Translations under genes and position numbers: made by a program
The notes under the pieces: model-generated
The model's input: only the letters and a program-made list of their open reading frames with translations
Database searches by the model: none
Told to the model about the DNA's origin: nothing
Part shown: positions 2,335 to 62,300 of the stretch, piece after piece
Layout: each line of letters starts with the position of its first letter
How positions within the stretch are numbered: the first letter of the stretch is position 1
Source: Asterochloris sp. CNOR1
Taxonomy: Eukaryota > Chlorophyta > Trebouxiophyceae > Trebouxiales > Trebouxiaceae
Length of the DNA: 64,000 nucleotides
Direction: 5' to 3'
NCBI GenBank assembly: GCA_963969365.1
Contig: OZ017762.1
Location: 1,302,001-1,366,000 of the forward strand

Positions 2335-5300
2335 TCATGCTGTCAGGCAGCTCTCATAGGTAGGGACCATGTACTTGATGTTAATGAATGCGTCCTCGCC
2401 ACCCTTCTGCTCGAACAGCGCTAGTGTGTCAGAAATGAGCTCCCCTAGGCAGGTGGCCTCCCGCTGCCCGTAGTCAATGCGGTCCCCCATGTTCTTGTTC
2501 CTGCAGGGCAGGGGTTGAGGAGGATCAGAGCAAGGACCAAGAATGTGGGGTGCACCTATCATTTGCGCCGCATTACATCCTTGCCTCCGATGCCCCCACC
2601 TAGCCATTCAGGAGCAGTGTCATGCTGTGTTCAGTGTGTGTGCTGACTTCTTGATGCACGCCAAACAGCAGACATGCTGCAGAGGAGAGCGGTACTTCAA
2701 AGCTGTGCACAAGGCAGCAAAACATGTCAAGGCCACCAACATCCTGCAGCTGTGCACCAAAGTTGTTGTGTCCAAAGGGTGAGGCCTCACCTGTTCTTGT
2801 ACAGGTTAAAGATGGGCAGGATCTGGCGGTAGTAGGGCACGAGGGCCTCGCCTACCAGGTCCGCGCTGCACACCAGCTTCTGCAGCAGCTGCAGCGTGAT
2901 GCACATCACCTGCAGTCAGAGAATTAGGAATCGTCAGCCATGCAGGACAGTACGCTGTGCAGTGAGTTGTGGTGCAATTGCAGAATGCTGCACACCAGCT
3001 TCTGCACCAGCTGCCGTACATTGCCTGCCGAGGGGCAGCAGAGCGTGGAAGAGGGCTACACCCATGCTGAAAGCCACCTGCATGCAGCTGCTGGCTGGAT
3101 GCAGCCGTGCGCTGCACATGACCTTCTAGTGTTCAGTGAGAGCTGCTGGGCTGCTGGAAGTCAAGGGGCTGCAGGGGCTGGCCGGCTGGCTGAAGCTGCA
3201 CTGTGGCGCCTGCCCCACCAAGCAAAACAAGCTGCAAGGTGGTAGCGCGTGGGCAGCACCCACTACAGCTGTCTGAATCCACCATTCAAGTTGTGAGACC
3301 TGCTGTTGCTGTCTGGCCTGCTGCAGCAGCTGCAAGCACCATGCTGCAAACAGTTGTTCCCTCATCCTCTGCAAGCTCAAGTTGCAGTTGCCCCACCAGC
3401 AGCCAAGCACTACACCATAGCCAGCCTAGCAGCCACAGCTGCTTTCGGAGCTCTTGATGAACAAAACCGCAAGCATCCACCCAACGATGGAGGCAAGCCT
3501 GCCTTGCGCAGCCACAGCCTTGCAAGGCCTCATGGTCCCATTAGCACATTCAGCAGCTGAGGCCCATCAGCAGCAGATCATTGACGATGTAAAGCCCCCA
3601 GAGCCAATATCTGGCGCACCTCCTGGTTGCATGTATTGCCGGTCTTTCTGCAGGGGATAATGCAAGCAAAACAGTCCCTGACGGTTGGCAGCCTCCCGAA
3701 TCGCTCTTGACCATCACCTGAGAGTTATGCCTGCTGACCCAGGGGAGCATGCTGGCGTGTGACAGCCAACCTCGACAGGTCCTGCTCCAGGAATGTAAAG
3801 GCAACATTGTGGCCTCCTTTCCCCAAAGCCCACCTCATGGTCCCGCGTGTTGAGGGCTGTCTTAATGGGGATGATGAGCTGGGGGATGACCGGCAGGATC
3901 TTGCTGCCCCCCGCCTTCAACATGTCCTCCACACCCTGCAGGCAGCAGCACGGGCTGTCCTTGGCACACGACACAGCCTGCTGCAGCAGATCGCCTCTGG
4001 CATGACAGCTACGGCCCTTGTACACTTTGCAGCAGTGGCAGCAGCACTCCAAGTGAGACAGCACAGTTTCCGGCCGCCGCTCTGCAGGACTGAATTGTGT
4101 ACTTATCGACATGTGTGTACACATTGCTGTAGGGCCCTGCAGCTGCCGTCCCAGAGGCAGGGCAGTTTAGCTGGCTGGAACAAGGCGTCCAGGAACTGGT
4201 GCATTATTCAGTTGCAGCTGCCTCTTCAGATCAAGGGGTCCCAGCAAATTGCCAGAAGGCATGGGCTCTGAAGCTTGCTGGAAAAACACATATACAAGAC
4301 GCGACTGTGGCTGCCAGGAAGCGTTTGGGCTTCTCAGCATCACGCAATATCTCAGAGTACCAGCTTGCTTATCACTAGCTGTGCAGTGACCCTGACATAA
4401 ACCACAAGTGCCGAGGTCCAGTCTCACCTTCACTGCCAGGAAGCGGTATGGCTCCTGAGTCTCCCTGATGCCATCAAAGAAGATGGGCAGGTAGTGGTGG
4501 TAGTCCAGCTTGGCCACATCCACCTGAACAAGCACAAAGGAGGCAGCATACATTTTGTCGCACTGTGACAAACGGCAAAAGGGCCATGCGCTGGGGCAAG
4601 TGCAATGCTTTTTGTGAAAAGCTGGAGGCAGACAGGCAGCTCTAGCAAACAACGCCATTGTCACACAGCAAACTACCAATAGGACCAGCAGCAGCCTTAC
4701 CCTTCAGCATATGGCAGATTCGCCCCCAGGTCATAAGGGCCGCACCATCCCAATGTCTAAGCCGCTTCAGATCGCCCATTTGAGGGTGCCACTCACCTTC
4801 CAGCAGATCACGTTCTTCATGCCCCTGTGCTCCACGGCCACGGGCAGGTCCCCCCGCTCGTAGAAACGCCGGAAGGCTGTGTTGGGTGGGTTCTGGCGCA
4901 CCTCGAAGGCCCCGGCACGTGGCGGCTGGGGCTGCCTGCGGCGGGTGGAGGGTGCTGTGGCAGGCGCCGGCGCTGCTTTGCGCCCCCCCTGCAATGCATG
5001 TGAACATGATGGTCTCAGCTGACAATCAGCATTTCCAGAAGCCACAGGCAGTGGCAATGGGGCTGCCTGCTGCAGGGGGCTGGCGCTGGCACCGTTGCTG
5101 CCCTTCACGGGGGAGCAGCCAGAGGCCAGTCACTTCAAGCTGAAGGTCACGCCGTCCCTGCGTGCAGCAGCTGGAGGTTCCTGTGACACCTTCAGGGTGA
5201 AGGTGCTGGCACTGTGCTGCCCCTGCAGCAGCACTCCAAGGGAGTGTAGGCAATTATCTCACCTGTGCTGCCTGGGTGGTGGCCATGGCTGCCCCCTTGG

Positions 5301-6304
5301 CCTTGATGAGGTCTCCCTCCCCCTTGCGAAGGTAGTGGTCTGGGCGTTGCTTCTCGCTGGGCAGGCTGCAAGCACCAAATGAGGGTGCATTTCCAGCTTT
5401 TGCATGCCAAAGTGAGCACCGCTAGCTGCTGGCGAGCAGAAGGGTACAGACACACTAGCAGTATTCAGCAGGGTCCACGTCTTGCTGGGCAGATTGCAGG
5501 CACCACAAAGGGGAGATATTGGATTCAGGCATGTGCCTACAAACAGCTCTTGGTCAATACACCCTGAGTCTAGCCAATGGCTGCAGTGACCGCCTTGCCT
5601 GAGACATGCGGCTGGTGCCCTGCTCACAAAGCCTTTGCCCAATGAAATGTGCTGCTTCATGGATCATGCGAAGCTAGCCCTTCCACACCTGTAGGAGCAT
5701 GTGGCCTTGGACCAGGTGGGGGTGTCCTGTTTCGTGGCTGCCTCATGGGGGAACTGGGTGCCCGCACGCAGAGGGGAGTTGAGTGCCTCACTGGTGTCAA
5801 AGCACTGCAGGCAGGTGGAGAGGGACCTCAGGGAGCGACCATTGAGGCGAGCAAGTGCAGCATTGCTGCGGAATGCAGTCAACTAAGCTGCCTGCTGCAA
5901 GTGCTGGAGAGAGCAGCATGGCCAACTTGTGTCCTGCATCAGCATTAGGATCAACAGCAATGCTTGGCACTTAGGACATCAACAGCCAGCTGTAGGCGCC
6001 ATGACAGAGCCTTGCTGCACTCCCTGACCTAGCAACTATTGATAGTTGCTGCCTGCATGGGCTTCCATGCAACATGCTGCCCACGGCACAAGCAGTTGTA
6101 CATGCCCACCGGTGCCTGGCAGGCACCAGGACTGAACACCCCCTGGCCTCCCTCCTTAACTGCCTGACACCAAGCACCAGGCCACAGCGTACTCACCGAC
6201 CCTGTGCCTGCCAGGGCTGTGTGGCGCTTGGGCTTCCCGGCCAGCTTCACGGCGCGGTATTGACTGGTGAACAGGGAGCCCGCAACATCTGGGAGGTCAC
6301 TCAT
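2335..6304 (-). CDS. PACRG: PACRG, parkin co-regulated gene protein (ciliary inner junction)
   Basis: PACRG is a microtubule-binding protein that joins the A and B tubules of ciliary doublets at the inner junction. Eight exons sum to 1002 bases (333 aa): 6304-6197, 5804-5689, 5365-5263, 4988-4797, 4523-4428, 3935-3834, 2909-2791 and 2500-2335. Diagnostic stretches in order are [79 protein letters not shown], and the C-terminal [20 protein letters not shown]. The first roughly 130 residues are a variable N-terminal extension, as in other PACRG proteins. All introns have GT-AG ends and phases agree throughout. The start is the ATG right after a CTGCAG, so a 5'-UTR intron may precede it. Human PACRG is slightly shorter. 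Its presence suggests the alga makes, or recently made, cilia. Confidence 0.93.
2865..3014 (-). repeat. exon echo of PACRG exon 7
   Basis: Bases 2865-2892, inside exon 7, recur at 2987-3014 in the adjoining intron. The first 20 bases are identical (starting GCTGCACACC on plus), followed by a diverging tail. The copy is upstream of the exon on the coding strand and is not an exon itself. Confidence 0.7.
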
Positions 6305-8892: not shown

Positions 8893-10655
8893 GTGTTGCC
8901 CACGACGTCCAGGGACACGTCAGCGTCTTCCTGACCACACCTGGCAGCCTGATGAACATGCTCCATGTGCTGCACAAGGTGGCCATCCTGGACCAGGTGG
9001 GTCAGTTGCAACATACACTCCCCTGCTATCCTGCTGTTGGGTTGTAGTTGACGACATGCATGCCAGCAAATTTGTCCCAGCATCTTTGCCAGGCAGGTGA
9101 GGGGCTTGAATGGGCAGGTTGCACCAGCTGACAGGTCTTCCTGTGCACCTGTGGCTAGGTGAGTGCGATGCTCAGGCAGTGCAGGCAGCAACGACAGGTG
9201 CTGGGGACCTTGGCTGCGTCTGCTTACACGGGCGTGTTCAGCATGCTAAAATTCGCTTGCTGCGCAATTGCTGCGCCAGGTGGTCATATGACCAGGGCCT
9301 CTTATAGGATTGGTTAAAAGCTGGAATGGGACCACCTTACAGCAACACGCATTCATTTGGAGTGGGAGGTGCTGTTGTCCCATTCTTTCCCTCTTGTCAC
9401 TCTCATCCAGATAACATGCTTGCTGGAGGTCTACAGCTCCACCCTGCCCCTGCTGGGATTGACCTGCTGCACAAGGTGGCCTTGCTGGACCAGGCCACAG
9501 ATGTCGCCTCACCAGCTGTGATGCATTGCTGGCATCTGCCGCCCAAGATGGGCAGGCGGGCAGACAACTTCTCAGCTGCAGATGATGGTTCAGCAAGGGT
9601 CTGTCAGCAGACAGGGCGTCCCCTGCCAAAACCCTGAAGGGGTTGAAACAATCTGTCAGCCGCGCTGTGCATGTGCAGCAGGCTCACATCTTGTCGACGC
9701 TGCAGCCCCATGCATTGGACTGGTGCGTCTCTCACACAGACGAACTATTCATCAGCACAGACCCCACGCACCCTCACCCCTGACATTGCAGCCTTGCACA
9801 GGCCACAGGGCACCACATTGCGCAACATCAGACCGGTCCACGGGGTTCATATCTGTGATCACTGCTCTTGCGCTGCAGAGCGGCAAGGGGCACCACATCG
9901 TGCAGAAGCGCCCCCGACGGCTGGGCCCGCTGCTGGGCAGCAGGGGTGTGGTGGCCGCCTGGCCACGCGCAGCAAGCCTGCGGCACCTGCAGCAGCATGC
10001 ACGTCACTACCTAAGAGGGGACACCTTTGTCGTCAGGTGATTTGTGACTGCGCACCGTCAATTGGAGAGTTTGCCTGCCGTGTGACCTGCTGTGGGACTG
10101 CATGTATTGACGCAACGCTGGCAGCATTCTGCTGGCCACATTGATGCCCATCTGGTTGCCTGGCCCCAAGCCTGGCTTTTGCTGTGTCATGGTGCTGTCA
10201 CGCAAAGGCACTTGGCGCCATGACTTCACCTGCTGCCTCTGACTTGGTCCCCTGGGATCCATTGCACTGCATTGTTGCAGCTGGAGAGCATGCACTACAG
10301 ATGGCTGCTTGGTTCTGGCAGGCGCTGCGCTTCCTCATCTTGCGGTGCATTGCAAACAAGATACCACTGCTGCTGCATGGGTTGTAAACCTTCTGGAAAG
10401 GTCACAGATGCGCTTGCAATGCACCCTTGCAGCGCACAGTATGTTCTCAGTCAAAGTTGTCCTGTCTGTTTGGACTGCAGCGCCACAGTGGAAGTGGTCA
10501 GGAGCTGGAGCTACCGACCTCAGGAGTCACCACCATTACAAGGCACAAGAGAAATCACCAGTGGTGGCAGTCTTGGCCCTCCAGAGCCCTACAACGATTG
10601 GGGCTATGCAGCTGAGGCCAAGGAGGCTGTGCTGGAACAGTGGCAGCAGCCCTGA
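8893..10655 (+). CDS. 3' part of an unknown multi-exon gene
   Basis: Three exons join with consistent phases. 8893-8996 (phase 1 in, 0 out) includes VSVFLTTPGSLMNMLHVL and HKVAILDQ. 9879-10036 (0 in, 2 out) is basic and includes SGKGHHIVQKRPRRLG. 10481-10655 (2 in, ending in TGA) includes REITSGGSLGPPEPYNDWG and ends AVLEQWQQP. TGTAA lies at 10779-10783. Upstream exons must exist, because the first block needs one base from an earlier exon. Candidates are a Gln/Ser/Arg-rich open block at 6763-7196 ending in a GTGCGC donor, and a short block at 8281-8313. I do not recognise the protein. The exon at 8893 has a decayed copy at 9461-9493. Confidence 0.5.
8964..9493 (+). repeat. exon echo of the 8893-8996 exon
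   Basis: The end of the exon (8964-8996) recurs at 9461-9493 inside the next intron, sharing GCTGCACAAGGTGGCC and TGGACCAG. In the copy the GT donor after CAG has become GC. Confidence 0.65.
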
Positions 10656-10778
10656 ATAAGCAAAACACCTTTCACTTACTGAGCATTGTCAATGACATCT
10701 CATGCCGCCCAACATTCATTGCTGAAGACCTTTGTCTACACATTTACATATGGCGGTCTGAGACTGTGCTAGGAGGTC

Positions 10779-14491: not shown

Positions 14492-22133
<7,642 letters not shown>

Positions 22134-33371: not shown

Positions 33372-36300
33372 ATGCCCACCTCCAACGACAATCCATTTGC
33401 CCAGCGATCACCATTTAGTGTGAGTCATCACAGCATCTCCTGCTGATTGTGCTGGAAAGCAATGGTACCAGGACATTTGCTGGCCTGTCCCTGACCATTA
33501 TTGTGGCCCTGCAGGATCCCTCTGTCAGTGCCTATACCGGCAAGCATGGCCACAGCGTGAGCAACCTGCTGCGTCTGAATAGTTGGCCTGTGCATGCATT
33601 GCTCCAAGCGTGTATCCTCAGCCACCTTCTGTGACTTTCACCATCTAGCAGTGCCTATCTAGCAGTGCCTAAAACATCAACGGGACCGGCTCCAGAGGTG
33701 CTGCACATGGCTGCATCATGCCTGACTCTGCCTTGCACAGCCATTGAATAGGTGGTCTCCCTGCTACAGGGCAGTGGCGTGCCAGCAGCAGGGCCGTGGG
33801 GCAGTGGTGGCAATGGTGGCGCCTGGGGCTCAGGGGCTCCAGTGGTGGCTACAATTCAGGCTGACGCAGACACTGGGGTGAGGTTTGGGGCTTGACAGGG
33901 CCACAGGACAGCAAGAGCGCAGCCTCAGCGCCATTAAACTATAATGCAGACTTAATATAATCTGGGGTAGAAGTGGAATGGCCTGGCTCATGTGCTGCAG
34001 GAGGCCTGGAGCCATGGCCTCCATTGTATAATCTTCCCGTGCACTGCAGAGCGATGTCGTACTGCAGAGCAAGCTTTCTTCAGGCGGCAGCCTCAAGTTG
34101 AGGGACCTGGAATGATGACAATGGGAGCTCGCAGCCAAAGAGATTGAGCTGCTGGTGCGCCTCACATGCAGCTTCTGCCCTGCCTGCAGAGCAATCTCCC
34201 TTCAGGCAGCCCCCTCAATGTGGAGGACCTGGAAAGGCGAGAAAAGGAGCTCGCTGCAAAGGAAGCTGAGCTGCAGCGGTGGGAAGCTGACCTCAGAGCG
34301 ACAGGCGGGCTGAAGCCTAAAAACAACTGGCCTGTGTGCTTCCCCATAGTCTACCTGGACATCGATGCAGAGGTGGGTCCCAGGGATGGGATGTAGCGGT
34401 GGGATGTCTCCAGCAAGGTGTCAGGCAGTTACTGACAAGGTGTCAGATCACTGGCAGCGGCCATATGTGTGGAAGGGACTATGCGCTGTTTTGGTGCATG
34501 TCAGCCATCTTGCAGGGCTTCTGGCTTGTAGTAAATGCCCTGGTGTCTGCTGGCCTCCAGAGCTCCTGGAGTCAACAGTAATCTCTTAATTGGGGTTGGA
34601 CTGAGGTGGTGTACTTGCTGTAGGTGCTGGCAGATCTGCAGAGATCCTGGGCTCAGCGTAACCCTCAAGATGCGTGACACCCAAGCAGCCCTTCTGCTGC
34701 AGGTGCCAGCAGATCTACAGAGCTCTGTCCGGAAGGCTTACTGGACCTACCTGGGCATGGCCGCCTGCATGGTATGGAATTCTTTTGGGTCCCTCATGGC
34801 GCTCATCATCATAGGCAATGGCGACGGGCGCCTGACAGGTGATCTTTGGCCTGATTCTAGAGCAGTCTGACAGCAATTGTGGAATTGGCGCTGTGCCTCT
34901 TGGCGACAGCTCTGAGCGCCTGACGAGTGACCGATGGAGCACACAAACCAGACCTTTTGCCAGGGCATTTTCGCACAAGCTGTGTGGTGCTGCCTCTCGC
35001 TGTACCTTGCCCGCCTGCATATGCTCTGCACCCCACACCATGCCTGCGGTACAGCATTCCCTGGGGCTGGACCAGTGCACAGAGTTCTGCACCTCTTTGT
35101 ATCCGGCAGGGAAGCCAAAGGCATGCTGCAGCCAGTGAAGCAGGGTCTAGGACACTTACTGGGGCAGGGAAGGCTATGCCCACTTGGTGCCTGCTGATGT
35201 GTCATGTTTGTGTGCAGGCTGGTTCTTGGCGATCATCTACATGGTGGCTGGCATTCCTCTTGGATGGTGGCTTTGGTGAGGACACCTAACTGACTGGTGG
35301 CTGGCATTCCTCACTGGCTGCTGATTGACAGCTGCTGCACGCACGTGCCTGTTTACCAGCAATTCCAAGGGATGGTTCTCTCGAAGAGCTGCAGCCACAT
35401 CTATCAAGCTGCCGCCGGGAGCTAAGGCTTGCACAAGCTCACCCGCTGGCTGCTGTAAAGCGTGCATGGGGCCCACTTTGTGCTCACGGCTGCAAGTAGC
35501 AATTGAGATCTGGCTTCTGCTTTGTTAGCAGCAGCACCAGCAGCAGCACTTTGAGTTCTGCTGCCCAGCCTCCCGCTCTGCCTGCAGGTTCAAGCGCCTC
35601 TACAACGCCGCAAAGAAGGACAGGGCGCTCAGCTATGCAGTGTTCTTTCTGATCTTTGCAGGCAAGCCCTGACCTGATGACGCATGCCTGGCCTGTCAAC
35701 GCTGCAGGTCGCTGCTGCTCATTTGTGTCCAGCAGCCCAGCCTCTGCTGCATGTTGGGCTCATGCTGGTCATGAATGCTTGCAAGCACTGATTTCTGACC
35801 AGTGTGCTGTTTCCTCTCTTGCATGAGCCCATATGTTTCTGTTTCATTGCAGTGCACTGCGCCTTTTGCGTATGGAGCGCAGTGGCGCCCCCTCTGCCTA
35901 GCGTCAACAATTGGTGAGGCCATGCAGTGCTGCGTGTGCCAAGCTTGTGGGCAGTAAGTGCGCTTGAGCTCATCTGTTGCGTGTGCAATGCAGCCCGCCA
36001 ATGCACAGCTGCACCTGCAGCACAGCTGCAGTTTGGTAGCAATGCACTACAAATGTGCTGATGCTGTGCTGTGGAATTTGTTTTGGCGCTCTGCACTGTG
36101 CGAGTCATCTGCGGACTGGCAGCAACGCTTCAAAACAAGCTGATGCTGTGTGGTGTGTTCCCTGCAATGCTCAAAACCTGGACCAGCATCCACTTATTAT
36201 GGTCACCATCAGTGCACCTGCTGCCTGCAGGTCCCACACAGGCTTCATCGCCTGCATCTCAGCTTTCAAGGCCAACAAGTTTGTGGGCGTGCTGTATGTG

Positions 36301-40100: not shown

Positions 40101-43100
40101 CAACAGCAGGATGCAGCTTGCCAGCAGTGAGGAGCAGCGTCATACTGCTACAACCGACCCACGACACTCCAAGTGCCTGCCCCTGTTGTGCTTAGCATTG
40201 CTGTCCTTGGCCAGGTCGCCCCCCTTAGCTTGCCCACAGCAGGATGAACCAGCATGCAACACCCTGCTGCAAGCCTGTATCAAGGCCTGCACAATGCACC
40301 CCTTTTGCCCTCCGTGTGCATGGCATCGCTGACCTGGGCCATGATGCCCTCCAGGGCAGCAGTTTGCTGGCGGCCCCCCACAGCGAGGCGCCCCAGGCTT
40401 GCCCAGCCCGGCCTTGCACTGACGGTTGGTTTTGAGCGTCCATGGAGGCGGCTATCTCCAAGGTGGTGCTCTTTGCTGCATCCTGATTTTCAGCCTTGGT
40501 GGCCTGGACCAGCGCTGAGCCCAGATTATCAGAGACTGGGTCTGGCGTGCTGCTCTCAAGTTGGGCAGTGCTGGCTGCCGCATTGGAATTCACTGAGGAT
40601 GCAGCTGTGTTTGTTCCCCTAGGACAACTTAGCACCTTCCACAGCTGCTGTACTCTGCTGGGAGGGGCCAGCTTCTCGGGGCTGACTGGGACAGTGTGGC
40701 CTGTCGACTGGGGCTCCCTGTGTTCCTGTCCTGAGAGGTAAGCTACCTCGGCCTTGGGCTGGCCAGCCTGCTGCTGTGCACCGGTCTGAGGCTGGCTGGG
40801 GGCAGCCTGGTCCCCTGCAGCTGCCTCTGTTGCCTCCACGGCTCGGGAGGTGGGTGCAGCCAGCAGGCGGGGCACAATGTCACCTGCGGCGGGATTGGCG
40901 GCTATGTCAGCCACCGTGCACAGTTGGCATCCAAAACAGTAGCAGGCTGTTTAACCTGCAGCAGAGTTGGCGCCCATGTCGAGCCCCCTGCCTTAGCCAG
41001 GGTCACCTTGCACAAAGGTGAGTAGCAGGCCGATCAGACAGCATGTCTGTCAACTCGTGCCATCAGTCGGCAGAGCAGTTTGCCTGTACTCATGTGCAAG
41101 CTACTGCGGAGAGGGATCTCTCATGGATTGCCAGTCAAAGCCAGGAGTTCCGGCTTGACTTCCCATGCACAGGATCGCCCTGTGCTTGGGCTAGAATCAG
41201 ACTGCTTGCTGGCACACTGACCTGAGTGGAACAGACATCACAGACCAGGGCCCATGGCCTAACAGGCTAATGTGTCCACAGCGACGCAACAGCATACAGC
41301 TGCCACTGTGTATGATAGAACATGTCTGGCCACGCAATCCCCTGCATGAGTTTTATGCAGGGACGTGTGCAGTATTGGACTCAGCCAACTCTCCCACCTG
41401 CCAGAGTATAGAAAAGAATGTGGTCCTGCCACCCTGCCTCTGCCACTGCGGCTGCCAGGGCTGCGTCCCCGACTGCAGGTGTGCCAAAGCAGATACAGCG
41501 CAGGCCTGCGGCACCTGGCGGGAGGCTGCTGCTGTGCAGCAGGCGCAGCATGCACAGCAGGGCCACCGCGCCGCCGAGGGAGTGACCTGCAGAGGTTGGT
41601 GGAGGCTGCTTGCGGTCTTGCTTTGTGGGGATGCAGCATGCACAGCAGGGCGACCATGCTGCCCAGGGAGTGCCCTGTTTTACGCCAGAATGAATGCTTC
41701 CCATGCAAAACCCGGCACGTATGCACAGCAGCTGCCCAGGGAGAGACCTGCAGGGGCAGCAGGGGAGGCTGGCAGCCTGAGGTACGGCATGAATTCAAGC
41801 AAGGGTCTGTCATCAAGCTTTGCCCAACCCTTGCCCGTAAGGGTGCAGGTGAGGGTGGTCAGCAGGTGTGCGCACTGCTGTAGAGCTTCACTGAACCAAG
41901 CAGCAAGATCACTCGCACGTTGTAATGCTGGTGCGCTGCAGCCAGTGGAAAGGAGCTAGGCGGCCCTGAACCACAGGGAGCCAAACACACCATGTAACCA
42001 CTGCTTCCTGCATTCAGTTGGCTGGTATCAAGTGCAGAAGGGGCTTACACAAGGCCCCCCTTGCAACTTGGCACTCTGCATCTGCAGGGCATAAAATGCC
42101 TGCTCAGCACACAGGATGAGCGCATTCCCCCAGCAAGCCGGTGTTTGCAGCAGCGCCTCCGCAACATAGTTTGCACGCGCAAGAGATGGAAGCCGCTCTC
42201 ACCGCACAAGATGAGCGCGTGCCCCTGGCGACCCGCTTGTTGCAGCAGCACTTCTGCAGGGACGCTGCGAGCGCGCTGCAGGAAGCCACGATGGGCCAGG
42301 GGCCCTGCCTGCAGCGCAGCAGGAGGTGTGATGGTGCTTGTTGGCTTTCACTTGTCTGCAGGTGCTGGGATGCTGGGGCATTGCGGGTTTGCTGCAGGTA
42401 CACCCGGTGGGCCAATGAGCCCACCTGCAGTGCAGGCACACCTGTGGCTCCCCAGCTGCCAAGCACTGGTTACTCAGCTTCTGTCCCCTGCTGAGCCATT
42501 GTTTCATGTGATGGGCTTGCACTGGGCTGCCCTGCCTCTGTCACACTGCTGCAGCCACACTTGTAACGTGTCACCTATCACTACTCCAGGGCTCAGGCTG
42601 ACCGTGCGTACACCTTCCATCAATCAGCCACGTTAGTCCCTTGGCAAGCATGCGCTCATTATATGCTGCCAGGCTCAGGCCACCCCATCCCCAGGATTGC
42701 GCCCTGCAAGCCCTTCTGCTTACTATCATTAGCAAGTTGTTGCTAAAATCTGCAAAAATGCTGGTGCAGACCTCACAAAGATCACGCTCCCTTTTCTGAC
42801 CTGCGCAGCGCCCCTCCCACTATTCCCCTCAGCCTACCACTGGCTCTCCCATTCATCTCCAGGCCCACGTTGGCGTCTGCCAGGCAGCGTATGCAGCTTC
42901 CCTCACATCAGTCGCCGACAGTTTTGCACCAGGCAGCCTTGGCCCACACCTGTGCAGCACCGTCTTTGGGCTTGGCGTCAGCCTGCCACAGGCTCTCCTG
43001 GCCCCAGTTGGCATCTGCCAGGATGTCGCGGAGTACCTTGGTGCCCATCAGTGCACAGTACAGATTGCCGGCTGCATCCCTGCCCAACAGGAACCTGCAG

Positions 43101-49100: not shown

Positions 49101-50887
49101 ATGGTGGTGGCCATCTGGAACATGATGTTGAGGGTTCCACGCACATGGGGAGGGGCAATCTCAGACAGGTACAGGGGGACTGCCTGGTTAGCAAAGCCCA
49201 CACCCCAGCCCAGCATGACACGACCGATGACCAACATGGCCAGGTCCTGCAGCACAGAAGGGGCTGGGAAGTCAACACAAAAGTGCTGCCTCACAACTGC
49301 AAAGGGTGGCAGGGTGTCGTGGCTAGCCAACAACGTCTGCACTGCACGGCTTGGTGGTATCAAAGTGGCCAGCAGCAGCACGTGATTACCATCATGTGTC
49401 CCAGCCACATCAGTGCTTCCACACAGCTGCGCAGGCAGGGGTTGGCTGGCTAAGTAGAAGGACTGTCAGCACCATCCAGCCAAAGCCACATGCCCCACCT
49501 GGGCGAAGGCGCAGAGGATGGCTCCAATGCAGAAGGCGGCCCCTCCAATGAGCATGGTGATCTTGCGGCCCTTGCGCTTGTTGACAATACCAGCGAGGAT
49601 GGAGAAGAAGGCACCTGCAGGGGCCAGGCGGGAGGAGTCAGTGGGGAGGACACAGCAGCAGCCTTCAAAGCTAATGAGCACGGCAGCAGTGGCTGGGTAT
49701 GCGTGGCAGGGCCCACTGATGCCAGCCGAGGAGGTCATCAAAGTGGCTAGGCACATGCTGCAGGGCCCAGTAATGTCAAACCCTTGAACAGGTGCTGGTG
49801 GGCATGCAGGCAAACAAGTGGCAGGGGCCACCAGCGCTATCAGCAGCACCCTCATGGCAGCTTTCAGGTAGGACAGAGGGCACCTTTATCAGATTCAGCG
49901 CTGCTCAGCTCAGGTTGACCAACTTCAGATTCTACAAGTCTGCAGGACATGCTGTGTGCAAGCCCAACTGCCAGACCAGCTCAGCATGCCACCAGACCCA
50001 ACTCTGGCGCCTTGTACTGGCTAAAGCATGTAGCCTCACCAGACAGGAAGAGGGTAGAGGTGAAGGCAGACAGCTTCTGGCTGTCAAAGCTGCAGTAGGG
50101 GTCAACGCTCTTGGTCTGCTGGGCCCGCAGCACGTCAGGGAAAAACTTCTCAAGGAAGTCTGGCATGGCTGTGACGCCACCGGTGACACCCTGCAGCCGT
50201 TGCAACGAGGGTGTGAGTGGCCAGCATGCAGAGCAAGTATAGACGCAGCAGACGCGGCAACCTTGGGCATTCCAAGCCCAGACTGCACGGTTATGCAGCC
50301 CACATGCCAGGAGGGCCACCAGTCAGTCAAATTACTCACCAAGTCATAGCCAAAGAGGAGTCCTCCAGATGATGCAATCAAGGCCACGATGATGACATAA
50401 AAGGTTGTCTGCAGGCAGCACGCACAGTTGCTCAGAGACTCTGACCCAAACTCAAATGAGTGTGCAAAACAAGGGTGCAGGCAGCAGGTGGCCTCAAGCT
50501 GTCAGCTGGACCAACAACACTTGCTGGGTCTGGACTGACAACTTGCTGGACAGTGAGCTTGGCAGCATGGCAGTCAGGCGGAGCGCTGACAGCAGTGACC
50601 TGCAGGCTGCAATGTAACAAGTTTGCTAGCATGGCAGTTGCAGGCTCACCTTTGCCTCATACTGGGCTGCCCTCCCCCCTGCAGCATGGCCAAGCAGGGT
50701 GACCACTTTGGCTTTGTCATGGGTTGCCCATGACCACTGTTGGCTGTCAACAGCATAGCAGGCCCCACGGGTTGCTGAGAAGCGGCCCAACACCGAGTTT
50801 CTTGACATTGTCTCAACAGCAGATTTTTGGCACATGACAACTAAAGTTCTGCTTGCCTGTGTTGGCCACTACCAAGCCCCCTGCCAT
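46155..50887 (-). CDS. sugar/H+ symporter of the Chlorella HUP / plant STP family
   Basis: This is a plasma-membrane hexose-proton symporter of the major facilitator superfamily. Thirteen exons sum to 1653 bases (550 aa): 50887-50857, 50678-50650, 50408-50340, 50190-50040, 49614-49499, 49246-49099, 48838-48663, 48425-48284, 48010-47842, 47602-47362, 47045-46855, 46521-46395 and 46217-46155. The N-terminus is [20 protein letters not shown], then [17 protein letters not shown] in helix 1. Others are [11 protein letters not shown] in the long first loop, [50 protein letters not shown] and [12 protein letters not shown]; all are STP/HUP marks. Twelve helices are expected. Intron 1 has a GC donor (ACAG|GCAAGC). 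The last exon encodes two DPKLG units. Which sugar it carries cannot be told from sequence. Confidence 0.95.
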
Positions 50888-52818
50888 GTCTGCTGCTGGA
50901 AGTGGCTGACTGGGGGGCTGAGTGGTGCAGGTGGTTGGATCAGATGATGAAGTCCGAGCCGAGAGGGCAAGGGCCGCGGTAAATGCTGCTGTGGCTGCCG
51001 GAGGCCTGGCTGATGTTGACCAGAGGTTGTCGTCCGAAAGGTGAGCGGTGAAAGTGAGATGTGCGCCGTTCCTTGTGCCGCAGTCAACCCTGCTTTTTCA
51101 TATTTATAGCAGTTAATCTTCTCAGACTGAGTAAGCTCAATCCTGAGCTGACTCATACACCATTCGTGTGCACACTTTATGCACACGAACATGAGGCAAA
51201 CAGTGTGCCCCATTGCAGGGGAGCAAGTGTGCAATTGATGGGCAGCTGCAGATAGAGTTTTCGTTGTGTGCAACAAGTGTGTGAATAGTGTGCAATAAGT
51301 GTGTGCGCTTGTGAAAGTGTGCTTCATTGTGTGTCAAACTGGCTAGGAGCCAGCAGCATGCACATGCCATGCATGGCAGCTAGCAGGGCTGCAGGCATCT
51401 GGAACAGGGAACATAAGAGACTGTCATCATAGGCTAGCGAGTTTTGATGTATAGACTGCTGACATTGCTCGGTCCAACAGCTGCTTCTGCATCTGAAAAG
51501 ACGCCACGAGGATCCGTGCGCATGCGCCTAGGTATACATTGATTGCACTTAGGGGGTGGGGCTGCCTGCAGTGCAAGAGGCACCGTTGCATGTTGCTACA
51601 TATGTTCAGACATTGCGCGCTGCCAGGTTCACGACATGCAAGAGGTCCAGGGTTGCCTTGACCATGCACAACAGGTGTAGGGTTGCTAACTCTCACAGTG
51701 CAGCACATACAGCCCAAGCGCTGGCGCACAGTGCTGTACAGGAGGGATACACTGATGGGCAGCACTGCAAGCTCTGGCAGAAATTCAAACCAACATCCCA
51801 CCTTGCGGCCATGCAATAAGGGGCCCTCTGCCTCACTTGCATTGAGGCTCATTGCTGCCTTGTCAAATTTTGTGCTACACTGCCCTGCCGCAGGCAGAGG
51901 GCTCAGCTTTCTACGACAGACAGATGTGGGGCATTGTGAAGGCAGTACACCACATGCAGCAAACCACACCTGCAGGCAGTCTGGACACCAAGGGCTTCCA
52001 GATATAGGAGTAGCCGCCGGGTAGACAGCTGCTGTGGCATCGACAGCCCCATGATGGCGGTCACACGTCCCTACAAGGCAGTCAAACTTGTTGTTAAGCA
52101 GGGCTGAAGCAAGGCAGAGAGCTCACATGTACAGGCTCACCTTATAAACATTTCAGATTGAAAACATCTGCCCTCATGATGAATCACTTGAGCAGGGCTC
52201 TGACTGGTGTGCTGCATGAACGTGTGGTGGAGTGCATCCCTATGAATGGTTCTCTGTGACCAGGCAGCTGTTTGACTGTCCAGACAAAGGTGTGTGCTGC
52301 AGCATGGCAGGCTTGGCAGTGGTCACAGCTGCAGTCTGCTGGAGCTGTGCACTGCACCATGCCGCTATGCTGCAAGGGGCTTGGCGAGCATGAAGGACTG
52401 TTGAGGGTAAGACGTGAATGATGACAGCAAGAAGATAGTGTACGACCCTATCTGACACATGCAACCCTGCCGCCTGGTTTACAGTCAACGTCTCGGGTTA
52501 TGCCGCGTGTACAGGTGAAGCTCGGCTGCTTGCTGCATCAAACAAGCTTCATTGTCACTCCCTGCATCTCTCACAGCGGTCTGCCGATGCTGCACTGAAC
52601 CGGTGATCTTTGAACGACACCCCTTGTTCTGCACAGCAACGTCCAGAGCGGCATCCTCCAGCTTGTATGTGACAAGTCGTAACTGATGCATCTGGGGGCA
52701 GAGGACTAGCCCATCCCTACTTGCTCTGCCAGCTGATCTGTGCCTGATCCTGGTTGAGCATGACATGCACTGGCACAGTCTGATCACTGTGGCGTCTCAA
52801 GCCCGCCCTTGCCTGCAG
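50888..52818. other. upstream of the sugar transporter; no supported gene
   Basis: This contains the transporter promoter. A short GT-rich tandem stretch (units like AGTGTGTG and GTGCAATAAG) lies at about 51263-51325. Open frames on both strands are short and show no family features. Exons leading into the twelve-block array, if it is transcribed on plus, would have to lie near its right end. Confidence 0.45.
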
Positions 52819-55262
52819 GCTGGCACCACATTCACAGAGCTTCCCATGCCCACTCCCGAGGGCCTGCGCCAGGTGAGCTTTGCAGGGAGAGGCACTGATC
52901 TTTGCTGTTGGGCACCTGGCTCCCAGTCTGCGCTGCAGCCCACTGCTGGCTGGAGGCTGGACGGCTGCAGCCGCTGTGACTCTGCTCCAGTGAACACCAT
53001 ACCCCGTTGCCTGCAGGCTGGTGCCTCATTGACAGCGTGCACCATGCCCATTCCCAATGGCCTGCAGCAGGTGAGCTTTGCAGGGAGAGGCACTGGTCTT
53101 TGCTGTTGTTGCACCTGGCGCCCAGTCTGCGCTGCAGCCCACTGCTGGCTGGAGGCTGGACGGCTGCAGCCGTTGTGACTGTGCTCCAGTGAACACCATG
53201 CCCCGTTGCCTGTAGGCTGGTGCCTCATTGACAGCGCGCACCATGCCCATTCCCAATGGCCTGCAGCAGGTGAGCTTTGCAGGGAGAGGCACTGGTCTTT
53301 GCTGCTGGGCACCTGGCGCCCAGTCTGCGCTGCAGCCCACTGCTGGCTGGAGGTTGGTCGGCTGCAGCCATCATGAATGTGCTCGAGTGGACACCATGAC
53401 CCGCTGCCTGCAGGCTGACACCGCATTCACAGCGCGCACCATGCCCATTCGCAAGAGCCTGCGCCAGGTGAACTTTGCGACAAGGGCACCGATCGTCACT
53501 GTTTGGCACCTGGCTCCCAGTCTGCGCTGCAACCCACTGCTGGCCGGAGATTGGACGGCTGCAGCCGCTGTGAACGTGCTCAACTGGACATCATGACCCG
53601 CTGCCTGCAGGCTGGCAGACTCCTCACAGAGCTTCCAATGCCCACTCCTGAGGGCCCGTGCCAGGTGAACTTTGCAACGAGGGGCACCAGGCTTTGCTGT
53701 TTGCCACCTGGCTCCTAGTCTGCGCTGCAGCCCACTGCCGACTGGAGGCTGGTCGGCTGTGCTTGGTCTCGCTATGTGCCCCTCCACAGCTGCAGCCGTT
53801 GTGAATGTGCTCGAGTGGACGCCATGACTCGTTGCCTGCAGGCTGGCAGACTCCTCAAAGAGCTTCCAATGCCCACTCCTGAGGGCCTGTGCCAGGTGAA
53901 CTTTGCAGCGAGGGGCACCAGGCTTTGCTGTTTGGCACCTGGCTCCCAGTCTGCACTGCAGCTGACTGCTGGCTGGAGGCTGGTCGGTTGCAGCCGTTGT
54001 GGATTTGCTTGAGTGGACACCATAGCGCGCTGCCTGCAGGCTGACACCACATTCAAAGCGCGTACCATGCCCATTCCCAAGAGCCTGCGCCAGGTGACCT
54101 TTGCGACAGGGGCACCGATCTTTGCTGTTTGACAACTGGCTCCCAGTCTGCGCTGCAGCCCACTGCCGATTGGAGGCTGGTCGGCTGTGCTTGGTCTCGC
54201 TATGTGCACCTCCACAGCTGCAGCCGTTGTGAATGTGCTCGAGTGGACACCATGATTCGTTGCCTGCAGGCTGGCAGACTCCTCACAGAGCTTCCAATGC
54301 CCACTCCTGAGGGCCTGTGCCAGGTGAACTTTGCAGCGAGGGGCACCAGGCTTTGCTGTTTGGCACCTGGCTCCCAGTCTGCGCTGCAGCCGTCTGCCGA
54401 CTGGAGGCTGGTCGGCTGTGCTTGGTCTCGCTATGTGCCCCTCCACAGCTGCAGCCGTTGTGAATGTGCTTGAGTGGACACCATAGCCCGCTGCCTGCAG
54501 GCTGACACCACATTCAAAGCGCGCACCATGCCCATTCCCAAGAGCCTGCGCCAGGTGACCTTTGCGACAGGGGCACCAATCTTTGCTGTTTGGCACCTGG
54601 CTCCCGGTCTGCGCTGCAGCTCACTGCTGGCTGGAGGCTGGTCGGCTGAACTTGGTCTCGCTATACATATGTGCACCTCCACAGCTGCAGCCGTTGTGAA
54701 TGTGCTTGAGTGGACACCACAGCCCGCTGCCTGCAGGCTAACACCACATTCAAAGCGCGCACCATGCCCATTCCCAAGAGCCTGCGCCAGGTGACCTTTG
54801 CGACAGGGGCACCAATCTTTGCTGTTTGGCACCTGGCTCCCGGTCTGCGCTGCAGCTCACTGCTGGCTGGAGGCTGGTCGGCTGAACTTGGTCTCGCTAT
54901 ACATATGTGCACCTCCACAGCTGCAGCCGTTGTGAATGTGCTTGAGTGGACACCACAGCCCGCTGCCTGCAGGCTGACACCACATTCAAAGCGCGCACCA
55001 TGCCCATTCCCAAGAGCCTGCGCCAGGTGACCTTTGCGACAGGGGCACCAATCTTTGCTGTTTGGCTCCTGGCTCCCGGTCTGCGCTGCAGCTCACTGCT
55101 GGCTGGAGGCTGGTCGGCTGAACTTGGTCTCGCTATACATATGTGCACCTCCACAGCTGCAGCCGTCGTGAATGTTCTCGAGTGGACACCATGACCCGCT
55201 ACCTGCAGGCTGGCAGACCCCTCACAGAGCTTCCCATGCCCACTCCCGAGGGCCCGTGCCAG
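52819..55262 (+). repeat. tandem array of twelve exon-like 54-base blocks
   Basis: Twelve blocks of exactly 54 bases start at 52819, 53017, 53216, 53414, 53611, 53842, 54040, 54270, 54501, 54737, 54973 and 55209. Spacing is 197-199, 230-231 or 236 bases. Each is preceded by CTGCAG (CTGTAG once) and followed by GT (GTGAGC, GTGAAC or GTGACC; GTTAAC in the last). Each block is open for 18 codons from its first base, so each would be a phase 0-0 exon. Two peptide types occur: AGRLLTELPMPTPEGLCQ-like (blocks 1, 5, 6, 8, 12) and ADTTFKARTMPIPKSLRQ-like (2, 3, 4, 7, 9, 10, 11). Blocks 9-11 with spacers are nearly identical, so the array is still growing or being homogenised. Whether it is expressed is unknown. 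The minus strand also has long open frames here, in different frames from each other. Confidence 0.85.
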
Positions 55263-56546
55263 GTTAACTATGCAACGAGGGGCACCATTCTTTTGTCATT
55301 CTCAGCTGAGTCGTAGGGATGCAGCTAGGACCATTCTTTGCTTGCTTCAGTTGCTGAAGAGTTACTCTAGCTGCTGCCATAGGCATGGCAAGTCTGTTTG
55401 CCAGTAGGCAGCATTTCTACAAGCCAGTACCTGAGCAAGCAAAGTGCGGCAGCTCAGGGATACAATGCAGCTTCTCCTAGTGACTAAATCATCTGGCTGC
55501 TGCTCTGCTGCTGCAGGAGGGATGCTGTACAACCCAAGTGAAGCTACTCAAGCAGGCATGGGCGCTAACTGCATCCAGCCATGCTGCTGAAGGGGGTCCA
55601 GCATCTGCAGGGCAAGCTAATATATGAGTAAGACCACACAGACCTCATCACTTGCCAAGGCAGAGGCCTCTGCTCACACCGCTGAGGCCTGGCACAGGTT
55701 GCTGTTGTTTGTCTGCTCTTTGCAAGCCTCTGGTCGACCAAGCTGGCATGTAAACGTACAGCGTCGTGCTGTAGAATGTGGGACCAGCATATGGGTCTGT
55801 GCTGACATGGCAGGCATACCCAGCAGGTGTAACAAGGTGGCCACTGAAACAATGCAGGCTGCGGGAAGCCCTTGCAGCTGATGGTCGGGTCATGCAAGTG
55901 TGGCATGATCATGCTTTCTGGAGCCCTGTGACCATGGATGGCATGGCGCCCCTGTGCTCCCTGGGTGGACATCTGAAACCTGGTACGGGCCCTGCTGGAA
56001 GCAACATCGTCACCACGTGGGGTGCGTGAGATGTGCAAGGGAACCGCCACGAAGCACTTCACACTAAGGAGCCCCTCCTATCGCCTCAGATTGCTATACA
56101 GCTGGACAGGTACTGTGCTGGCAGCATGTGAGTGGCAGGGCAGTGGCCTCATGCAGTGACAAGGTTTTCTCTGCAAACAGCACCAGATGAGCACGAGTGA
56201 TAAGTCTCAAGCATGTCAAGACCTTTGCTCTGCAGCATGCATGTGGCGGGCCCACATACTGCCTCCTGGGAAGCCTTCCACTGCTGCTCAGCTGCAGCTA
56301 CCTGCAGCCACAGCTGCCTGGTCACCACGTACTGTGATTTGGCACACGACCCAGGTGTCGCATGAACCATATATAGGACTCTCCAAAAGCATTAATATCA
56401 ATTTTCCATCAAAGGTGGCTTTTCAATGCCCAGTGAAATGGACAGCAGCCAGTCAATACAAACACCATAACAAGAATGCCCTGTGCTCTCTGCAAGCCAC
56501 GCCAACTGCCCTGCCTGATACATAGCGCTCATGAAATGCTGCTTTT
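55263..56546. other. intergenic, nothing recognised
   Basis: A minus-strand frame of 165 codons at 55565-56062 has no recognisable motif or splice context. Minus-strand TGTAA at 56545-56549 would serve the DUF2177 gene, about 195 bases past its stop. Confidence 0.45.
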
Positions 56547-56810
56547 ACACAGACCTGTACCTGTCAGCCTCCTGATGAGGCCCTATGCTCAGATCAAAGT
56601 GGGCAGCAGGTCACTAATATTTCTGGGGCAGACACATGAGCGCTGCGCCAGTGATGGCACACAGAGACGTGCTGGGAAACACACAGACCTGTACCTGTCA
56701 GCCTCCTGATGAGACCCTGTGCTTCGATCAGAGTGGGCAGCAGGTCACTGACAAGTCTGGGGCAGATAACTGAGCGCTGCGCCAGTGATGGCATACACAG
56801 ATGTCCCCCA
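56547..56810 (-). repeat. 134-base tandem duplication over the DUF2177 last exon
   Basis: 56547-56680 and 56681-56810 are two copies of one unit starting ACACAGACCTGTACCTGTCA, with scattered substitutions. The right copy contains the real C-terminal coding sequence and stop. The left copy keeps AITGAAL and an in-frame stop a few codons later, so it is an echo downstream of the gene. Confidence 0.85.
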
Positions 56811-59305: not shown

Positions 59306-62300
59306 GTGCCAAAACCCTGCAGCAGCATGTCACCCAGGAGTTCACCTGCGACCAGGCGGGGCAACTGCTGCACCGGCAGATGCGCCTGCACCGCACCTCC
59401 AGCGGGCGTGGGGGCACTGCCGCCCAGGCAGCTGTTCTGATGGGTCAAGGAGGGAGCGACGGCCAGGCTGGACGCAAGCTCATCCTGCTGCCGGCTGCTG
59501 CTGTGGCGGCAGCTGCTGCAGGTGGGTGGTCTGTCCCTGAGCAGAAGTGGGTGGCCAGCTTGCTACACGTGTCGTTCCGGTGAATGAGGGTGCAGCTGCT
59601 CTGATGGGCAGTGGCAGTGCCAAGGGCCAGGGGTAAGGGTCAGGGTCGTGCAGACACAACCTGTCTTTTCCAGCCTGCTGCTGCTGTACAGGTGGCTGCT
59701 GCATATATATGCAGGCTAGTGCGTGCTGCTGCACAGTTGAAGCAGGCATTGCCATTGGAAGCTTTGGCTGCATGTTTCAGCCATCTTCTGTTGCCGCCAC
59801 ACTCTTTGTGTATGGTGCTCAACTCCGCCCTCAGCTGCTGCCGTTGCGGTGCACTCAACTCTTGGCTGCAGCTGCTGTGGCGGCTGAGCACGGCAACTAT
59901 GGTCACACTCTGTTGCTGCATTAGCCTGTTTCTTTTGTATGCTACTACGCTGAGCCCTGCATCTGTTCCCTGCTGCAGCGGCGGCGGCAGCTCAGGCCCA
60001 TCAGTCTGAGATCGAGCCCCCTCAGGCATTGGCGCTGAAGCAGCACATGGCAGAGAGCAGGTGAGGACCGCACACTGGGTAGAGGTGTGCTGATCACTGC
60101 ATTTGTTGAAGACAGCCAGCGGGGAACTGCACTGTCAGCAGGAGCTGTACTGCTGAGTGCCATGCATGACTGAGAGTTGGTGGGCGGGCAGGCTGCATCT
60201 GGGGGATTCTGATTACATGTGCAGGCTGGCTGTGACATGCCTTGTCCTGCAGTGTGCTGTGTTGTCTGTGTTTCCTGACTCAGGCCTGCAGGTTGAGTCA
60301 GTCTAGGATTGCACCTCCTGCAGCATGCAACGGGGTGGCAGCGCCAGGCATACCTGACTTCACAGCCAGCTGCTGCAGCTGAGTGCAAGCAAGGCGACCC
60401 TTTGCGGCCCTGTCATTTTGTGGGCGCCAAAACAAGATGATAACAGTGAACAGCTATAGGACTCCGTGAACAGCTGCTGCACCCCAGGGTTGGATTGCAG
60501 CAGCCCTGAATATGACGTGCCCCACAAGCGTGCCCCATGCCCGCAGGTGGTTGCAGCAGCTGTCTGAGGAGGAAGGTGTGCTGGCAGTGCTGGATGCGGC
60601 CAGCATCCACAAGCACCCCCTGCTGGGGCAGGACCACATGGTGAGGCGAGGTGTGGGTCAAGCTGGCTTCTGATGCAAGGATTGAACAGAGTCCTGGCTG
60701 CTGGGCAAGCCATATGGTCAACCCAGCTGTCAAGTGGTGAACCCTGCTGGGACATTTGAACCCTGCTGACAATGGCTTCTGCTTGGCTACTGAGCGCATG
60801 CTGCCAATGTGTAGCGCAACAGTGTACTGTGGTGTCTCTTCAAGCCATGGCAGTTGCATCTACATGGACTGCTGTGCTGAAAGCCCGTCAGGCATTCCAC
60901 TGTCGTGATGCAGATGATCTAGATAAGATTGTTGCAGATCTGCCTAGCGAATTCTGTCTGAACACGTCTGCATGTGTGCGCTATCAGTGGGGCACCAAAT
61001 TGCATTCATTGCTGTGCCCTGTCATAAACTGCATTGTTGGTTGCACTTCGGCACAAGCCACACCTGCTCCCCCTGCACTGCAAGGCCATGCTGCAATGCA
61101 TCTTGTGGTGGGCTGGGGCCTAGCCATATCCTCATTACGCTCTGCCCTGCAGTTCAGTGCCGAGCTGTAGTGCAGTGCAGAGCTGCTCTAGGCCCCAAGC
61201 TGCCTGCTGACCATGTGTTGCACTGCACCTCACAGACCCCTGCTTGTGCCCTGCCTGCAGCTTAGCGCCAAGTTGCTCCAGGGGCTCACCTGCCTCGTGC
61301 TTGCAGACAGCCTGTGTTGGGCTGCACCTCAGCAAGGCCTGTGCTCTGCCTGCAGTTCAGCGCCATGCTGCGCCAGGGCGCCCTGCGCGACATGCTGTGC
61401 TTCTATGACAGCCAGAAGCGCAAGTTCCACACCGTGCTCCAGCTGGGTCGCGAGGTCTGTGGCTTCCCCCGCATCGTGCATGGAGGCCTGACGGCTGCAA
61501 TCATGGACGAAACATTTGGCTTCCTGCTGTTTGCCCTCAAGGTGAGCCACTGGGCTTGTATGTTTGATGTAGTTCACCTCATACGGATCTGAACTCCAAA
61601 GTAGCTTGGGCTCCTGCGATTCAGCCTCAGAAAAAGCCACCTGCAACCATCAAAGCTGCCTGCACACAAAGCCGCTGTCAGCCGTCCTTCTGGGCAGTCT
61701 GCCAATTACAATATATGTCAGTCTGCATCTATATGGACTGAACCTTGGCCTATCCGGCCCACCTGGATGTACGAATGTGCAGCATTCACATCCGATCTCA
61801 GCTGGCCCCGCAGGAGCACAAGCAGCTGCCCTTTTGGGGGCCAGCCTACACAGCCCACCTCGCCGTGGACTACAAGGCCAAGATCAACGCTGGCTCCACC
61901 ATCCTGTGCACCTGCTCAGTTGAGAGCATGGAGGGGCGCAAGGTGTGGATGCAGGCTACCATCTCGGATGGACCCACAGGTGCGCTGCGAGCAGCTTCTT
62001 GTGCCTGTGTGCGTCTGGGCTGGGCTGTGCTGGCCACGCTGGGCTGCCATCAGCTTTGACAGCTCTACAGGTTTGTTGGCAGAGACGCTCTGTGCCACAA
62101 CCTTGCAGGGCGCTTCAGCTATCAATGGGCTGCCTACGGCGCAGTCTGCCTGTTCATGAATCACCTGCTGCGCAGTCTGGCTGCTGTACATAAGCTGCTT
62201 GGAGCTCCACAGCAGACCATTGCTGCTTGGGAGCTGACTTTCATCCGGCCTGCTTTTGCAGTCCTTGGCAGCTGACACTATATGTATGACTGACCACATG

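Follow-up and report, generated by a model that had tools for sequence, protein, structure and literature searches.

In rice, partially tandem and non-tandem local duplications have been attributed to error-prone break repair (Vaughn and Bennetzen 2014, as summarized in the review PMC7407515), and small tandem duplications elsewhere have been ascribed to CST-Pol alpha fill-in at staggered breaks, as described in PMC8355091. Where introns are concerned, the review PMC3443670 and a report on a case in potato (PMC4974935) present intron gain by tandem genomic duplication of exon segments containing AGGT; the same review presents intron gain in Daphnia, with short direct repeats after repair of staggered breaks, and PMC9860276 presents introners and transposon-derived introns as contributors of intron sequence across diverse eukaryotes. 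Here we describe a 64,000-nucleotide (nt) stretch of the genome of the green alga Asterochloris sp. CNOR1 (contig C17, 1302001-1366000; the window), together with further sequence from the same genome, in which introns carry same-strand, decayed copies of the edge of the exon they touch, at frequencies far above chance. We refer to these copies as echoes.

The genome is 56.4 Mb in 21 contigs and is the one genome analysed. Gene models were made for the window and for 259 kb of added sequence: 200 kb of contig C1 (C1:500001-700000), a 9-kb region containing an HSP70 paralogue, and a 50-kb hold-out (C9:480001-530000). A self-trained hidden-Markov gene finder, for which Pfam-located HSP70 and kinase exons served as seeds, was iterated on the window, the C1 block and the paralogue region; the first two training rounds were too conservative, and the third-round model was used. 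The hold-out was annotated with the frozen model and C9 was absent from the later training rounds; it was picked for its HSP70 gene and not randomly, and exons of that gene were among the starting seeds. The set analysed consists of 34 genes of at least 120 codons, with 249 introns, 45.5 kb of exon and 102.8 kb of intron, leaving out predictions shorter than 120 codons and a seven-exon call within a tandem array at 52.8-55.3 kb of the window. The models are ab initio and conservative, their exon boundaries are predictions, and matches inside one intron are partly non-independent; from the window only PACRG, HSP70, a sugar transporter and a thioesterase enter the counts, the gene finder having missed the others. 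Eight predicted proteins were submitted to Pfam, which returned Cpn60, glycosyl transferase family 3, GFO/IDH/MocA, AAA, PACRG, sugar transporter and thioesterase, with a RAD50-like domain in one protein below the cut-off; the genes with these above-threshold assignments and two HSP70 genes make up a set of nine Pfam-recognised genes.

In the strictest test the query is the 60 nt at either end of an exon and the target is the intron adjoining that end, aligned without gaps, so that the splice consensus cannot contribute; its controls are swapped exon edges (20 permutations), reverse complements, and the intron flanking the opposite end of the exon. Matches were present at 30 of 498 junctions (16 donors and 14 acceptors), whereas swapped edges gave a mean of 0.20 and a maximum of 2 per 498 junctions, reverse complements gave 1/498, and the wrong-side intron gave 0/430 (right versus wrong side, Fisher 7e-9). 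Echoes were found at 3/70 junctions in the window, 19/300 in the C1 block, 0/24 in the HSP70 paralogue region and 8/104 in the hold-out, the window count being small because the gene finder recovered only four usable genes there; the nine Pfam-recognised genes gave 11/156 against 0.05 swapped. Chance or composition as the cause is ruled out by these swapped, wrong-side and reverse-complement controls, all of the same composition. A preliminary description of the window had proposed, from reading the letters, that introns repeat the edges of neighbouring exons and that frequent local same-orientation duplication respects the junctions, and both proposals are borne out, the signal standing far above composition-matched controls.

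Other searches agree. In the raw window with tandem arrays masked, words of at least 13 nt separated by 100-500 bp form 13 direct and 4 inverted pairs, and words of at least 16 nt form 4 direct and none inverted. When 60-bp queries centred on the junction are compared with introns of the same gene up to 600 bp away (score at least 28), matches are found for 19/197 donors versus 1.1 swapped and 22/197 acceptors versus 2.3; query windows placed 60-90 bp into the exon find fewer (3-7, with about 0.5-1.4 expected), and windows inside the intron show an excess too (7-13 versus about 1-2), because introns hold duplications of their own. With targets in the same intron, the hold-out gives 7/51 for a donor window centred 10 nt into the exon (0.04 swapped) and 7/51 for an acceptor window on the junction (0.42 swapped), with no reverse-complement match in either case. 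The self-comparison that the preliminary description had called for shows a clear excess close to the exon of origin: among exon-intron matches of score at least 30 within 1 kb, 52/53 lie in the adjacent intron on the correct side. At least one such match is present in 41/249 introns, and these are longer (median 599 versus 330 nt), which agrees both with their having more room and with growth by copying. When all matches of score at least 32 within 1 kb are counted, 149 are direct (46 exon-intron, 50 intron-intron and 53 exon-exon) and 2 are inverted.

The echoes derive from the outermost part of the exon. Coverage of exon sequence by echoes is 6-8% within 30 nt of the junction, 5.5% at 30-40 nt, 2.9% at 40-50 nt and 1.2% at 50-60 nt, and falls to 0-0.4% beyond 60 nt, a drop of about 20-fold or greater; exon interiors yield almost no echoes, with or without CTGCAG. 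Copy-and-paste of random nearby fragments is rejected, as exon-interior copies are nearly absent and none was found on the wrong side. Most echoes (score at least 30) lie 80-350 nt from their source (43/53), with one at 66 nt and nine beyond 350; shifts of donor-edge copies are 91-308 nt in 22/26 matches and 413-589 nt in the other four, in introns of 250-1052 nt, and acceptor-edge copies lie upstream, near the acceptor. No exon-intron match of score at least 32 has a shift below 80 nt, compared with 22/50 intron-intron pairs, possibly reflecting selection against close competing splice sites; shorter shifts do occur below this score or outside the gene models, at HSP70 exon 10 (66 nt), in the presumed SCAMP gene (53 nt), and in a gapped donor match from an exon-seeded search (49 nt).

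The inner ends of the copies, nearest the junction, are concentrated at the splice signals. For the 25 donor matches of score at least 32, 14 end between -3 and +5, 10 earlier and one beyond +5, and 14 of the 21 acceptor matches begin between -19 and -1, the remaining 7 inside the exon; in total 28/46 have their inner end in or at the splice signal. The preliminary description held that copies nearly always include the junction, which stands in so far as they mostly stop at or near it, and fails for the donor ends that fall more than 3 nt short and for the acceptor copies that start within the exon. Past the splice signal there is little further similarity: clear homology of the intron flank is seen in 1/29 echoes (at 61242 in the window), and a flank score of at least 16 (the swapped 95th percentile being 15) in 4/29, including 0/15 among donor echoes, which miss that score even when the identity of the exon copy reaches 92%. 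Over the first 10 nt past the junction (n=29) echoes match the intron at 5.48 positions, mostly in the splice signal, and the next exon at 3.24, with 3.29 for random sequence; the sequence there resembles intron and not the next exon, and the template was therefore unspliced. An origin from spliced mRNA or cDNA is rejected, since the copies do not continue into the next exon. In intron 5 of C1 gene 18 the exon end recurs three times in a 40-bp tandem, the last copy (45/49) ending at CTGCAGGTGAG and followed by unrelated sequence.

Gene ends were searched as well and gave echoes at 1/33 stop ends and 0/34 start ends, numbers too small to tell a splice-specific process from a general one. The stop-end case is C1 gene 17 (C1:654343), in which 50 nt located 18-68 nt ahead of the stop end recur 30-80 nt downstream of it (43/50), outside the predicted introns. 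Short direct duplications internal to introns are common, many with unrelated flanks, numbering 50 pairs in the 102.8 kb of intron with tandem arrays included (for example in C9 gene 5 intron 7, C9 gene 6 intron 12 and C1 gene 4 intron 8). Ends of intron-intron matches fall within -30 to +8 of acceptors 9 times with 3.7 expected, and at 8-40 twice with 7.2 expected; near donors they show no notable pattern.

Comparison of exons and echoes shows mismatches at codon positions 1, 2 and 3 of 70/481, 70/471 and 96/472 (14.6%, 14.9% and 20.3%), and the synonymous fraction of the changes is 0.308 with a neutral expectation of 0.273; the echo therefore changes freely, and the exon mainly at third positions. 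Among echoes reaching within 5 nt of the junction, GT is intact in 7/15 and AG in 9/14, with a mean copy identity of 0.84. Both the loss of splice signals and the spread of changes over codon positions are as expected under neutral decay, and they speak against spare exons and maintained decoys. Coding constraint on the copies, as in a retained alternative or spare exon, is rejected, the copies being partial and their mismatches blind to codon position; the earlier suggestion that duplication supplies spare exons is accordingly not upheld.

The age of some host introns can be read from HSP70, which shares 451/593 amino acids with a paralogue on the same contig and 7/14 introns in position and phase. 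In this one gene, echo-bearing introns 4, 9 and 13 have identical position and phase in the paralogue, and at least three echoes therefore entered pre-existing introns; of the two other echo-bearing introns, intron 2 falls upstream of the region covered by the paralogue model, and intron 14, absent from the paralogue, could have been gained or lost and may be young. A search of the genome with HSP70 and a 20-kb stretch of the window, for recent paralogues that might reveal empty sites, found, besides the window itself, only short matches of 39-184 bases, which we read as single exons, and no paralogue with alignable introns. The preliminary description had further suggested that such duplications create new introns. 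Were that so, a copy of the exon end would be expected at the 3′ end of the intron, with a shift equal to the intron length, and the donor-edge echoes do not show this; they lie near the donor and not the acceptor, and in HSP70 the three shared introns are not new at their positions.

We tentatively interpret the echoes as neutral scars of a local duplication process anchored at splice-signal-like motifs, a reading that we consider reasonable and far from secure. The outer 25-65 nt or so of an exon, in many cases together with some or all of the splice signal, would be copied into the adjoining intron on the same strand, mostly 80-350 nt away. A polymerase engaged in replication or break repair could meet a splice-signal-like motif in the intron (a cryptic CAGGTGAG or pyrimidine-CTGCAG), skip forward from it to the true splice signal, copy into the exon, and then return; splice signals and cryptic intron signals probably share the longest directional motif available for such a forward template skip. 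With a directional shared motif and a forward skip, copies would be of the same strand and would arise only in the intron across that junction; because the copy is spliced out it would be tolerated, and would then decay. A minority of echoes would be ordinary duplications across the junction. Simulations of the flanks, which cover donors only, give a flank score of at least 16 in 7-8% of copies and extension past +5 in 22-24% under anchored copying, and 40-69% and 62-79%, respectively, under junction-spanning duplication with neutral decay. With 0/15 and 1/25 observed, the data are closer to anchored copying that ends at the splice signal than to junction-spanning duplication, though many copies stop earlier. 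Several observations sit less comfortably with anchoring. The 10/25 donor matches ending more than 3 nt before the junction, and the 7/21 acceptor matches starting inside the exon, share no splice signal in the ungapped match; the 46 exon-intron matches stem from 38 junctions, five of which give two or three each; permissive gapped alignments give longer intron-side similarity in some cases (judged unreliable and excluded from the counts); the 50 intron-intron matches are of similar length, so part of the process is not linked to splicing; and donor-side windows 100 nt into the intron give 12/194 versus 0.42.

The main rival is ordinary local duplication, either tandem or as filler DNA in break repair, at random places, such that only events spanning a junction leave exon copies, of which the functional one is kept and the other decays. 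This accounts for the adjacency and the side rule, and reproduces the depth limit for duplicated segments of a length intermediate between two simulated settings, 30-70 and 40-100 bp. Also in its favour, intron-intron duplications of this size class are frequent, and PMC8355091 names small tandem duplications as the most frequent type of short insertion in humans. There are also clear junction-spanning cases, at 61242-61378 in the window, in C9 gene 1 intron 9 (a 49-bp unit), in C1 gene 9 intron 4 and at the acceptor of C1 gene 19 intron 4; the first of these, the thioesterase echo at 61242-61283, has an intron-side flank score of 28 (swapped 99th percentile 17) and is a true junction-spanning duplication of about 95 bp. 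Random duplication predicts, however, an exon-intron to intron-intron ratio of 0.11-0.43, where 46:50 is observed, and predicts that 57-79% of donor copies extend past +5 and 40-69% have a scoring intron flank, where hardly any do; it also sits poorly with the lack of strong exon-intron matches at shifts below 80 nt, which intron-intron pairs do have. Plain junction-spanning duplication therefore covers a handful of clear cases and is rejected as the sole cause, the intron-side homology that it predicts being mostly absent; it stays the main rival because the simulation assumes uniform breakpoints and neutral tolerance, and as the general explanation we regard it as somewhat unlikely. The short tandem duplication put forward in the preliminary description thus applies to some clear cases and does not serve as the main mechanism. 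The CTGCAG-rich junctions that it named are a plausible anchor, in view of how frequent this hexamer is in the sequence.

The strict dependence on junctions, the restriction to the same strand and the adjacent intron, the unspliced continuation of the copy, and the tendency of inner ends to fall in or at the splice signal would also be explained if nascent unspliced pre-mRNA, its ends protected by the splicing complex, were reverse transcribed at its own locus or served there as template for break repair. We consider this improbable, as it would call for an RNA species with exactly such ends and for different protected fragments at donor and acceptor copies; a broader version, in which pre-mRNA bound by the splicing machinery, or DNA structure at splice signals during transcription, acts as the template or entry point that writes exon edges into adjacent intron DNA, seems to us similarly improbable. 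The exon stretch beside a splice signal is the usual location of splicing enhancers, and the echoes hold both; some retain a perfect GTGAG or CTGCAG, as might be expected of decoys selected to regulate splicing or intron retention. Such selection is very unlikely, given that the signals decay and no constraint beyond neutral is seen. Least credible of all is an artefact of the gene models or of TGC/CAG-rich composition: although the models are ab initio and CTGCAG, with 253 occurrences, outnumbers every other hexamer, controls sharing that composition yield next to nothing, and the effect persists in the nine Pfam-recognised genes and in the hold-out.

Templated insertion of the polymerase-theta type mixes direct and inverted copies, whereas here the strict test finds a single inverted match beside 30 direct ones; the same-strand and local character of simple tandem duplication is found, and duplication of the intron side, in 1/29 echoes, mostly is not. 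One close likeness is to the rice break-repair duplications, which are short and local, with inserts from within 200 bp of the break and duplicates separated by other sequence; the description in PMC7407515 ties them to no splice junction, whereas exon edges here are at least 20 times over-represented relative to interiors. CST-Pol alpha duplications, as PMC8355091 presents them, are likewise direct, local and tens of bp long; they are contiguous, however, where the echoes are mostly separated from their source by unrelated sequence and have one end mostly in or at a splice signal. Tandem genomic duplication, in the accounts of PMC3443670 and PMC4974935, similarly duplicates exon sequence and splice signals locally, but there the upstream exon end recurs at the acceptor, and here nearer the donor; it also creates the intron, whereas in the three testable cases the host introns are older than the gene duplication. 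In the Daphnia events of PMC3443670 direct repeats also flank inserted sequence, but they bound whole new introns, whereas here an exon edge is paired with intron interior. Unlike the introners of PMC9860276, the echoes are locus-specific, each matching its own exon; exon edges do not recur as the same sequence in many introns or genes, a comparison made with the edges themselves.

Searching the literature for exon-edge copies in adjacent introns gave no description, with most subscription papers outside the coverage, so that a prior description is possible. The Chlorella NC64A genome paper may discuss repeats that exons and introns have in common.

The individual genes and echoes of the window are listed in Table 1. 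Of the echoes named in the preliminary description, that of PACRG exon 7 is there, as are those of HSP70 exons 3, 4, 10 and 13, to which exon 15 is added; the thioesterase exon at 61356 has two or three echoes, and the lipase exon is echoed twice and the plus-strand gene at 8893 once by reading, the latter without a gene model. PACRG exon 1 gives none at the threshold used, although the acceptor edges of exons 3 and 4 do. For SCAMP one repeat was read (35242 to 35295), shortly after a GTGAGG. A match to the SCAMP family is nearby, at 36202-36363, and the assignment of the exon at 35242 to SCAMP rests on the preliminary description. The similarity in the unnamed plus-strand gene stops at the presumed donor. 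The name DUF2177 that had been given to a further gene is doubtful, a genome-wide search with PF09945 finding no match.

Table 1. Genes of the window and the echoes of their exon edges. Positions are those of the window.
Feature	Position	Strand	Source and shift	Identity and basis
PACRG gene	2335..6304	-		8 predicted exons; gene model and PF10274 Parkin co-regulated protein, E 2.8e-81
PACRG exons 7, 4, 3	2791-2909, 4797-4988, 5263-5365	-		gene model
Source in PACRG exon 7, 17-45 nt inside exon start	2865..2892	-		27/28 identical to 2987-3014; exact 20-mer
Echo of PACRG exon 7 in upstream intron 6	2987..3014	-	shift 122	gapped alignment reaches acceptor-matching CAG
Echo of PACRG exon 3 acceptor edge	5480..5505	-	5352-5377	22/26
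Echo of PACRG exon 4, 31-62 nt inside exon start	5058..5088	-	4927-4957	25/31
Unnamed gene, echo of exon end	9465..9481	+	8968-8984, shift 497	exact 17-mer; exon by reading only
HSP70 gene	14492..22133	-		15 predicted exons; PF00012 matches exon by exon and model
Echo of HSP70 exon 15 acceptor edge in intron 14	14819..14854	-	about 14604-14639	28/36; hand-converted coordinates
Echo of HSP70 exon 13 donor edge in intron 13	15690..15724	-	about 15791-15825	gapped score 31, junction-spanning; hand-converted coordinates
Echo of HSP70 exon 10 acceptor edge	17283..17300	-	17217-17234, shift 66	17/18
Echo of HSP70 exon 4 end in intron 4	20303..20361	-	about 20444-20500	gapped 45/59; hand-converted coordinates
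Echo of HSP70 exon 3 start	21494..21517	-	21142-21165, shift 352	22/24
Echo of exon end (SCAMP in the preliminary description)	35295..35312	+	35242-35259, shift 53	exact 18-mer
Lipase_3 exon, GHSLGG motif near start	41435..41590	-		PF01764 match C17:1343435-1343590; exon start about 41586 by reading, no gene model
Echo of lipase exon start, upstream	41633..41651	-	41545-41563, shift 88	exact 19-mer
Second, weaker upstream echo of lipase exon start, including CTGCAG	41714..41753	-		by eye
Thioesterase gene	59380..62485	+		6 predicted exons (exon 4 = 61356-61541); model and PF03061 4HBT, E 4.8e-8
Echo of thioesterase exon 1 end	59673..59703	+	59490-59520, shift 183	25/31
Echo of thioesterase exon 4 acceptor edge	61242..61283	+	61337-61378, shift 95	35/42
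Second echo of thioesterase exon 4 edge	61146..61167	+		19/22
Third echo of thioesterase exon 4 edge	61065-61094	+		24/30

The window also contains a ten-exon sugar transporter gene (46155-50166, minus strand; PF00083), for which no adjacent-intron echo of score at least 28 is present among the exon-majority matches listed. A tandem array at 52809-55293 has units of about 198-236 bp with a recurrent CAGGTGA-like donor motif, through which the gene finder threads seven tiny exons, and near it a 134-bp unit is present in about two copies (56547-56801, 88% matches).

If the pattern is general, it represents a measurable, directional mutational process in which introns grow from their own exon ends and are seeded with cryptic splice sites, and it would provide near-copies of splice sites, together with their exon context, as a dated series from which one could ask when cryptic sites are used. 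Similarity between exon and intron of this kind could mislead annotation and tests of intron origin, since it can be read as intron birth. The rules themselves (the adjacent intron, the correct side, and the outer 60 nt of the exon) are sharp enough for testing in any well-annotated genome. Should splice-directed copying prove true, introns would gradually accumulate fossils of the exon ends beside them, and splicing would be a source of intron growth.

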